A stretch of DNA of 64,000 bases. Source: Flavobacterium sp. (GTDB lineage Bacteria > Bacteroidota > Bacteroidia > Flavobacteriales > Flavobacteriaceae). The notes below the pieces were generated by a model. The model did not search any database. It was not told the origin of the DNA and saw only the letters and a list, made by a program, of their open reading frames with translations. The DNA lies in assembly GCF_027490375.1 (NCBI RefSeq), contig NZ_JAIXYH010000040.1, positions 62,001-126,000 of the forward strand. Direction: 5' to 3'. A program made the translations under genes and the position numbers. Shown here one piece after another: positions 3,634 through 59,207 of the stretch (positions are counted from its first letter, which is position 1; each line of letters starts with the position of its first letter).

Positions 3634-3945
3634 AATGGGGAAGTGTAAAGCTGCTACGACAAATACAAACAGTAAAGACTTGTCGATTTACCTGTATTCG
3701 AATCAAAAATTGAGGTCAGAAATCAATCAAAATAATTGCTCAAAACTTTTGTAATTCAGGTTTCATGTACCAAAATAAACAGCTCATTTTGAGTAATCTG
3801 AACGTGGTTTTTGTCGAATTCAGCTGATTTGCAAATTGATATAACAATACTACTCAATTTCTCAGAGAAATACTACGTCCAAAATTGGTAATTTAATTCG
3901 AATGTGGAATATTAGCTTCCATTGTGAGCCGAAAAGCTAAGTTTT

Positions 3946-14461: not shown

Positions 14462-14480
14462 TGGATTTGTGAACGATTTT

Positions 14481-14560
14481 CCGCGTGAGTGACCGCAGCG
14501 GCATCCTTTTGTGAGTGCCTTTAGGCCGAATAAAAGATACAGCGGAGGGCACGACCCGAG
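14481..14560. repeat. flavobacterial-type GC-rich intergenic repeat with imperfect dyad
   Basis: GCAGCGGCATCCTTTTGTG...AATAAAAGATACAGCGGAGGGCAC; related to the element at 59108-59207. Confidence 0.55.
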
Positions 14561-27183: not shown

Positions 27184-27247
27184 GGAGATTAAGAGATTTC
27201 GAGATTAAGAGATTTCGAGATTGAAAGATTAAAAGATTAGAGATTTG
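27184..27247. repeat. low-complexity GAGATTAAGAGATTTC tandem repeat
   Basis: gagattaagagatttcgagattaagagatttcgagattgaaagattaaaagattagagattt. Confidence 0.7.
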
Positions 27248-27408
27248 GGTTGAGGTACTTGGTTTCTGGGCAATCCGCTGCGGCAAACGTTTGCTGGAAA
27301 TTTGTCGCGCCGCATCGTCACGCCTTTCACTGCAACAAAACGCCCGAAAAAGCACAAAAACGGGTCGCCAAAAAGCTTCTGAGGTCGCTTTTTCGCTTGG
27401 GTTTTTGT

Positions 27409-27629
27409 AAACCTGAACTCGGTTTAAAAGTTAAAGTCAGAAAATATTTAAATGGTTGATTACAAGGCGCACTTTATTTGGGATACTGTAGTATCGCAAA
27501 TAAATGCAACGAAGTAAGCGACCGTTTAAATGTTTAGCGGCCGCGATTTACACAGATTTTGTGTTAGTCTAAATCTCAATGTATTGTGAAACCGCGATCT
27601 GACAGAGATTTTTAATCGAGTTCAGGTTT
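27409..27629. repeat. structured dispersed non-coding element, copy A (MITE-like, terminal inverted repeats)
   Basis: Ends AAACCTGAACTCGGTTTAAAA / TTTTTAATCGAGTTCAGGTTT; nested internal stems; homologous to 47839-48034. Confidence 0.75.
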
Positions 27630-27779
27630 TAGGCATTTTCAGGCGTTTTGGTTTCCGTTGCAGTCGTTATTGCGGGGAACGTGCTAACCGTGTAGTTGCA
27701 ACTCTATCATTCTAGTTATAATGTTTTTTAAACGACATCTTCGATCCGAAAGCACAGATTTGAAATCCGCAGAATCAAT

Positions 27780-47568: not shown

Positions 47569-47690
47569 TTGCGTTCGACGTAGAAATTGAAGTTAGGAAT
47601 CTTTAAAACGGTGTAACAGGCGTATTTTCTTTGCGATACTGAGGTATCTCAAAAAAGTATACCGACGAAACCGACGAATGGAATCGCTAA
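47569..47690. repeat. divergent partial copy C of the structured dispersed element
   Basis: TTGCGTTCGACGTAGAAATTGAAGTTAGGAAT aligns with the left end of copy B; central GATACTGAGGTATC hairpin aligns with GATACTGTAGTATC. Confidence 0.5.
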
Positions 47691-47824: not shown

Positions 47825-47838
47825 TCGCGTCTTTGCTG

Positions 47839-48034
47839 CCTGAGTTCGATTTAAAAATTGCAGTCAGAAAGCAGATAAATGGTTGATTACAAGGCAGATT
47901 TTTTTGGGATACTGTAGTATCGCAAAAAAATCTAACGAAGTAGGCAGCCGTTTATCTGTTTAGTGTGCAAGTTGTTATTTTCCATTGCTATTTGATTTCA
48001 AGCGATCTGACAAAGATTTTTAATCGAACTCAGG
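47839..48034. repeat. structured dispersed non-coding element, copy B (MITE-like, terminal inverted repeats)
   Basis: Ends CCTGAGTTCGATTTAAAAATTGCAGTCAG / CTGACAAAGATTTTTAATCGAACTCAGG; internal stems AGATAAATGG/CCGTTTATCT and AGATTTTTTTG/CAAAAAAATCT. Confidence 0.75.
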
Positions 48035-48633
48035 TTTGCAGCAATACCGCTTACAAAAAGCAGCTGCGGCTGGCGTTTTTCTGGCTCATGAAATCGCCCC
48101 AAAAACACCGCCTACGCAAGCTTTTTGTACAGCTATATTTCCGCGTCAACCGCTCTTGCAGAAAAGTACTTCGTCAAGAATAAGTCGCTGAAAAGTTGTG
48201 CAAGATAAGTTACCTCTATTCACTGGAGCGCATCAAAACTACAGTTAAACACCAATTATAGCCATAGTAAACATGCTTTCTAGAGCATTCCGTGGTGTGC
48301 AAAATCCGAGCTGCGTATTGTGTTTAAAGCGCTCAAGCAGTAGTGTTATGAGGATAAGATCGGAAAAATCGATTTGAGATTATCGTACAACGAACTTTTT
48401 TGTAACTACCTACATTCAAACATTCTGAATAAAAGTGGTATTCGAATTCAAGCTTTTTTATGTTTCCACTACTTTAGCGCAAAAGCACGCTTGTGCCCCA
48501 TTCGGCATTTTCTTCGATCGCGGATAGGAAAGCAATTATCTTAAGCATGCAATTTTGAAAAAAAATCAGTAATTCGAACAGCAGAAAACAAACGTTTTAC
48601 GAAATTGTTTTTACTTTGTGAAAATTATGATTT

Positions 48634-59085: not shown

Positions 59086-59107
59086 GTTTATTCGGTTTTG
59101 GTGCCCT

Positions 59108-59207
59108 AGCCCGGATTGCAGCGGCTATCCTTTTTGGGCTAAGGCGAAATTTTTAATTATAGCGGGCTGTTGCCCAAAAAGATAATAGCGGAAAGCCGGA
59201 TTAGCTC
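59108..59207. repeat. flavobacterial-type intergenic inverted repeat
   Basis: AGCCCGGATTGCAGCGGCTATCCTTTTTGGGC ... GCCCAAAAAGATAATAGCGGAAAGCCGGATTAGCT. Confidence 0.75.

Follow-up and report, generated by a model that had tools for sequence, protein, structure and literature searches.

Structured repeats in a Flavobacterium contig

The window, i.e., the whole stretch of 64,000 nucleotides that was analysed, is part of contig C48 in a genome of 3.38 Mb, from a genus that includes Flavobacterium aurantiibacter. It contains two copies, A and B, of a non-coding element of the MITE type in which terminal inverted repeats enclose a hairpin, together with the remains of others:

3690..3825, plus strand: relic with left end ACCTGTATTCGAATCAAAAATTGAGGTCAGAAATCA and a decayed right end, the latter judged by eye
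27411..27627, plus strand: MITE copy A, subfamily A, ACCTGA...TCAGGT, 217 bp (nhmmer profile of copies)
27411..27440, plus strand: left terminal inverted repeat of copy A, ACCTGAACTCGGTTTAAAAGTTAAAGTCAG, aligned in about 45 copies
27441..27536, plus strand: conserved hairpin of copy A (stem I, internal loop, stem II, apex)
27464..27468, plus strand: left strand of the internal loop of copy A, AAGGC, kept across elements with different ends
27482..27495, plus strand: apex of copy A, GATAC-TGTA-GTATC (ATAGC...GCTAT in the majority of distant members)
27508..27513, plus strand: right strand of the internal loop of copy A, AACGAA, kept across elements with different ends
27537..27598, plus strand: variable linker of copy A, the fastest-changing part (substitutions per column)
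27599..27627, plus strand: right terminal inverted repeat of copy A
47597..47685, plus strand: degraded third hairpin, just upstream of copy B
47838..48035, plus strand: MITE copy B, subfamily B, with left end GCCTGA and not ACCTGA
47868..47962, plus strand: hairpin of copy B

The original prediction, made from the sequence alone, had placed the two copies at 27409-27629 and 47839-48034, which proved accurate to 2-3 bases, and had described seven paired differences between them. All seven are present: two in the ends (AC/GT in A vs GT/AC in B), two in stem I (TT/AA vs GA/TC) and three in stem II, and the apex is the same in both copies, as claimed. The overlapping ORFs had been considered short and unconvincing, and this also held, as no ORF of at least 100 aa overlaps A or B.

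Three covariance models were used for scoring: R1, built from the window family; R2, from seven distant hairpins only; and R3, from 17 diverse hairpins. The hairpin of copy A scored 108.8, 80.4 and 88.5 bits with R1, R2 and R3, respectively, and that of copy B, in which the linker is 16-19 bp shorter, 107.6, 85.0 and 89.9 bits. The fold z against dinucleotide shuffles (−8.7 for copy A and −11.0 for copy B), together with the about 45 full-length copies in the genome, allowed us to exclude that the hairpins arose by chance.

No clear target duplication was found at copies A and B themselves. Several A-type copies (L002, L003, L005 and L011) have flanks in common with copy A (27241-27410 and 27628-27700), and are therefore parts of a larger segment that is repeated or duplicated, and not independent insertions. 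The degraded third hairpin (30.5 bits with R3) has AACAGGCG, typical of the copies with a nested element described below, yet it lacks the nested element, and could possibly be a deletion derivative of such a copy. Two Flavo-1 RNAs (RF01705) also occur in the window, at 14475-14560 (plus strand, 45 bits) and 59104-59206 (plus strand, 69 bits), and a below-threshold Flavo-1 RNA adjoins a MITE copy in L024.

Copy number and spread of the family

A DNA search of the genome listed 50 matches, and a profile search gave about 45 full-length copies of 205-220 bp, with a unit size of 215-220 bp. All copies have the same layout, namely a 30-bp terminal repeat, a hairpin of ~96 nt, a variable linker of ~60 nt and the second terminal repeat, and fall into three subfamilies, A (ACCTGAACTCG), B (ACCTGAGTTCG) and C (ACGTGAGTTCGATATAAAAATC). 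Matching exact patterns against 85,462 species genomes, from which the window's own genome was perhaps left out, located the family in 2 further genomes, those of F. aurantiibacter TH167 and of a Flavobacterium MAG from a pond. When 60 more genomes of Flavobacterium were searched directly at the DNA level, only one 52-bp end-like match was obtained. The strict A/B/C hairpin pattern had 0 matches in viral contigs, and plasmids searched with a GC-rich member of the hairpin gave no match.

Terminal repeats and target sites

Two of the checks proposed with the original prediction, for a cognate transposase and for target-site duplications, gave positive results. The genome holds one intact IS982-family transposase (NCBIfam NF033520, 255 bits), and no IS982 copies beyond this one were found in it. 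The element, of about 1.03 kb and with a transposase of 301 aa (C66:40836-41865), has ACGTGAGTTCGATATAA on both sides, which are the ends of subfamily C (17-20 identical bases); the same element occurs in the pond Flavobacterium MAG, flanked by the 6-bp duplication TATTTA. The end ACCTGAACTCGATT of the left repeat of copy A is also found in an IS982 element of another Flavobacterium genome (L192, genome G788), which matches the A-type ends over 14-16 bases and whose transposase is 55% identical to that of the window's own genome. A third IS982 element (L207, genome G427), with ends ACCTGAGTTCGAC, matches the B-type ends. No IS with A or B ends was found in the window's own genome, and the helpers for these two types are present in other genomes only. 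Candidate parental IS ends at C4/C37 were rejected, being one decayed locus and not an IS.

Exact target duplications of 5-7 bp flanked 15 of the 34 elements having both ACCTGA/ACGTGA... ends (33 MITE copies and one IS), compared to 1.3 expected by chance with shuffled flanks (maximum 7 in 5000); one of the 15 is the IS itself, with the 6 bp TATTTA. Beyond the ends, the inner sequence of the MITE has nothing in common with the IS982 elements examined, which lack the hairpin. Thus, as far as these elements are concerned, it is not derived from the parent IS, a derivation that is not required of every MITE. Since the ends match those of IS982 elements and are accompanied by 5-7 bp duplications, the repeat is likely a non-autonomous MITE of an IS982 system, carrying a hairpin maintained by selection; its mobilisation in trans is inferred, and no transposition was observed.

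Stem I of MITE copies has also received IS982 and another MITE, both at one and the same ATTTAAATA site, and TAAATA stands at either junction (C58 end, L084; C60 start, L082; L099:4779-5042). These nested insertions show past movement of both the IS and the MITE.

Pairing is retained while the stems change

To follow base pairs through the family, 60 distinct copies were placed on a maximum-likelihood tree with parsimony states. Pair-keeping double changes numbered 18.1 in the hairpin and 8.7 in the terminal repeats; permuting the partners gave 0.8 (at most 7 in 5000 permutations) and 0.66, respectively. On inner branches 18 changes kept a pair and 3 broke one, whereas on terminal branches 28 kept and 36 broke (Fisher P 0.0009 between the two classes), suggesting that the lineages which multiplied kept the fold and that single copies lose it. 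Across 34 distinct hairpins, 96% of cells pair, and changes on both sides were found at 15 of 35 pairs (90 cells, compared to 5-14 cells in slid register). The linker accumulates substitutions several times faster than the hairpin. We consider it very likely that the hairpin is under selection for pairing.

The test named in advance as able to refute this view counts against it: when all column pairs were scanned in the manner of R-scape, with a null based on the tree, none was significant. The three deep subfamilies leave correlated columns everywhere, which explains the null result of the blind scan; this is a real limit of single-genome data. Tests on the named structure and models across genomes decided instead.

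One hairpin between several kinds of ends

With R1, weaker matches were found in other genomes. In these distant hairpins the stems differ from the window family at almost every letter, and the internal loop AAGGC / AACGAAG is the same. R2, trained without the window family, nevertheless recovered both window copies (80.4 and 85.0 bits, plus strand) and gave the family overall 75-91 bits on the plus strand and at most 32 bits on the minus strand. Over 396 genomes of the phylum, it found new members in G788, G427, G459, G746, G822 and G939, the genomes G822 and G939 being GC-rich and from another class; for the order, 398 genomes were searched with R3, and 10 of them had members at E 1e-4. Among the 17 diverse hairpins, changes on both sides were seen at 31 of 35 pairs; pairing held in 88% of cells, compared to 36-47% in slid register, and the covariation score reached 0.74 (0.11-0.20 in slid controls). 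As the alignment of these 17 was fitted to the model, more weight belongs to the blind recovery by R2; orthologous copies from sister genomes do not count as independent.

The signature of this superfamily is an AAGGC / AACGMAG internal loop between two covarying stems, closed by an ATAGC-GCTAT-like apex. The window family fits it, its apex GATAC/GTATC differing from the ATAGC-GCTAT found elsewhere by a paired change. The hairpin core sits in elements of 160-300 bp with at least five other terminal repeats, hosted by several families and two classes of Bacteroidota:

Ends AGAGCCTGTTTAAATTTTAT: genome G788, 162 bp, TNA-type duplication in 5 of 6 copies; paired with an IS5-family transposase (NF033580, L196)
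Ends GAACTCATCTTGACTTTTT: genome G427, 160 bp, 3-bp duplication in 5 of 5 copies; the partner is likely an IS5-type element with similar ends (L220)
Ends GGTGGGTTCT / GGGCAGCTCTAAAAA: genomes G021, G137 and G594
Ends GCGTGTTGAAAAACCATCG: genomes G822 and G939
Ends ATACCAAATGCACT: genome G986
Ends GGGTTTGATATAAAATAA: genome G343
IS982-type ends: two more genomes (L161, L226)

The pairing with a transposase is shown for IS982 and for the first IS5 only, the other end types being without an identified transposase, and the IS982 and IS5 elements examined have no hairpin inside. Profile cross-matches indicate that IS982 and IS5 are remote relatives, so that an ancient co-descent of element and transposase cannot be excluded.

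The window's own genome has a second MITE, of 161 bp and with ends ATACCAATT, which carries the hairpin and scored 54 bits with R3 despite being outside the training set. Eight of its nine copies (L122, L124, L125, L127, L128, L129, L130 and C60:105-264) lie inside the hairpin of the first MITE, all at one single site, between GATTA and (C)AAGG beside the internal loop, in host copies of all three subfamilies; the remaining copy is free (L126:1501-1661). Either a site-specific insertion or a composite element that spread could account for this arrangement.

Further arrangements were observed. In the 264-295 bp elements with GGGCAGCTC / GGTGGGTTC ends (L162, L163, L164, L134 and L135), an apparent second, different hairpin stands behind the conserved one, and one scored 33 bits with R2. 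In G427, tandem hairpin elements (L200:2584-2676 and 2768-2860) are located beside an insertion sequence with ends CAGGGCAAACTCACACT. A viral contig (IMGVR_UViG_3300009536_000011, L190:1774-1867) has a hairpin that shares the loop and apex (GCAAGGC, GCATAGCAGCGCTATGC, AACGCAG); it is flanked by two phage genes, has no terminal repeats and reaches only 20 bits with R3. Looser patterns gave 1, 9 and 0 matches in viral contigs; only L190 folds, and the other matches were rejected as chance coding sequence.

Three options, a MITE, a REP-like element and a multi-copy structured RNA, had been left side by side in the original prediction. That of a MITE held, the ends being those of co-resident IS982 elements with target duplications of 5-7 bp; in addition, the inner hairpin is kept by compensatory change and is part of a wider structured family. 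A REP-like repeat is not supported, as long terminal repeats and target duplications speak against it. The inference of selection on a folded form, or of a transposition mechanism needing paired ends, is supported in both its halves.

Orientation and neighbouring genes

On the plus strand of the diverse set, 38 cells are G-T and 15 A-C (P 0.002), whereas the branch origins within the window family gave 15 G-T and 6 A-C, with P 0.08 only. G-U pairs were allowed by the model with which the diverse hairpins had been collected, and the argument drawn from wobble pairs is of moderate strength. The plus strand folds at −38.8 and −45.6 kcal/mol, compared to −24.1 and −29.9 kcal/mol, respectively, for the minus strand. 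Between co-directional genes, the plus strand was in sense in 34 cases and antisense in 15, a count resting on heuristic gene calls and on copies that are not fully independent, some being orthologous. The excess of G-U over A-C pairs on one strand makes a folded RNA, or a single DNA strand, likelier than a cruciform.

In the window family, the neighbouring genes converge at 24 copies and diverge at 1, whereas the element-free gaps number 12 and 23, respectively (Fisher P 7e-7). The hairpin elements of other genomes do not show this bias (2 convergent, 12 divergent), and we therefore put it down to the target choice of IS982 or to avoidance of harm. A general role as intrinsic terminator was rejected, as a T run follows the hairpin in some members (G427, G459) and an A run in others. 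In the compact members, of about 160 bp, the terminal repeats continue into the hairpin, so that the whole element forms one long stem.

Alternative explanations and a model

The reading that we regard as possible besides our own is that the hairpin acts as DNA, with no role as RNA, in the form of a cruciform or of a lagging-strand hairpin that joins the ends or times transposition to replication. The selection, which seems linked to propagation and not to single copies, and the one long stem of the compact members are in favour of it. On the other hand, a cruciform should accept G-T and A-C equally, whereas the plus strand has a G-T excess and folds far more strongly than the minus, and the sense orientation between co-directional genes (34 to 15, with the reservation made above on independence) also counts against a DNA role; a single DNA strand is still not excluded by the strand evidence. 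A host function at gene 3' ends, such as transcript ending, mRNA stability or insulation of convergent genes in the manner of REP/BIME, finds support in the convergent position of the window family (24 to 1). We judge it unlikely: the bias is not general (2 to 12 in the other genomes) and may reflect a choice by IS982 of T-rich sites behind terminators, or avoidance of harm, individual copies of the hairpin decay, and no constant T run follows it.

Two further readings appear very unlikely. The paired changes could be a by-product of replication, in which template switching between the arms of an imperfect palindrome produces them without any selected fold, and several compensated changes do occur in single copies (L105, L115, L021), as a one-step correction would leave them. 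However, such correction should have spared neither the mismatched internal loop nor the bulge nor the G-G mismatch, all of which are kept across elements; a mutational bias does not predict that uncompensated breaks are common on terminal and rare on inner branches; and the strand asymmetry, in both wobble pairs and folding, is also opposed to it. It might also be argued that elements with other ends are unrelated and that long AT-rich hairpins merely resemble each other to covariance models. In fact, the models give the wrong strand of any long hairpin about 28-54 bits, and some distant matches, e.g., L190, are weak. Against this stand the scores given by R2 to the unseen window family (75-91 bits on the plus strand against at most 32 on the minus), the finding by R3 of the untrained ATACCAATT element, the letters of loop and apex, kept even in GC-rich genomes, and the rejection by R3 of eight chance viral pattern matches that fold otherwise.

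We return to the reading of a MITE with a selected hairpin. The sequences themselves establish the matching ends, the target duplications, the covariation and the fact that elements with other ends contain this hairpin as well. In the model that we propose, an IS982-family DDE transposase would bind the terminal repeats ACCTGA/ACGTGA...TCAGGT/TCACGT, a binding that was not observed, and would cut out or copy the MITE and insert it with a target duplication of 5-7 bp. The cargo would be the hairpin of ~96 nt, with the internal loop AAGGC / AACGAAG fixed, the apex nearly so and the stems free to change if paired. Its plus strand would fold, most probably as RNA transcribed from an adjacent gene; RNA is inferred to be likelier than single-stranded DNA as the folded form, and no transcription was observed. 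A host factor common across Bacteroidota may recognise loop and apex, again by inference and without any protein binding observed, and this recognition would aid the multiplication of the element and not the host, an inference made because pairing is kept on inner branches and decays in individual copies. The function of the hairpin itself in the spread of the element is thus only inferred, in the absence of transposition, transcription or binding data. A bolder reading, which we hold tentatively and to which we would assign slightly less than an equal chance, is that the hairpin represents a class of structured nucleic acid that has not been described before, is probably RNA and does not depend on a particular transposase, and which rides in MITEs of IS982, IS5 and several other types across Bacteroidota, keeps loop and apex while its stems change, and would help its carrier to spread by means of a common host factor.

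Relation to known elements

A search of Rfam 15 with the window and eight loci, in E-value mode, found no family that matches the element. The open-access literature searched, which leaves most subscription journals outside its scope, held no such element in Flavobacterium, no description of the hairpin and no sequence-string match. On the basis of Rfam and of this literature, and without a comparison with ISfinder, a hairpin common to MITEs with different ends is likely undescribed. If it holds that the inside is conserved and the ends vary, a functional module belongs to the bacterial MITEs themselves, and it can be asked what recognises the module, whether it raises transposition and how it changes ends. 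A covariance model, which Rfam does not have, is now ready for finding such elements.

The closest known case is MITECca01, an IS982-derived MITE of a Cardinium endosymbiont (PMC9769881). It resembles the window MITE in its Bacteroidota host, its length of about 240 bp, the lack of a transposase, the ends of a co-resident IS982 and the many copies. It keeps short inner stretches of the parent IS, whereas the inside of the window MITE matches no IS982 examined, and a hairpin or secondary structure is unmentioned in the text searched. IS982-derived MITEs being known from Cardinium, the window MITE alone is not a new kind. QMITE2 of Coxiella, MITEAba12, BOX, SPRITE and other bacterial MITEs are similarly short and non-coding, with terminal repeats, target duplications and predicted folded transcripts, the latter mentioned in a 2024 review of prokaryotic MITEs and in the MITEAba12 paper (PMC10969869, PMC6382973). 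They differ in that the passages searched in these two papers describe neither a hairpin common to MITEs with different ends nor covariation.

REP/BIME repeats, which depend on RAYT (Y1) transposases, are also intergenic hairpins in many copies, but the long terminal repeats and 5-7 bp duplications of the window MITE indicate a DDE transposase. The structured RNAs of Rfam, those of mobile-element types included, likewise combine fixed loops and stems that covary. The IS982 of the same genome has the same ACGTGAGTTCGATATAA ends and the 6-bp type of duplication, and differs from the MITE in having a transposase and no hairpin. MITEs are usually taken as empty, consisting of two transposase ends and whatever lies between them; here it is the inside that is conserved, and the ends vary from element to element.
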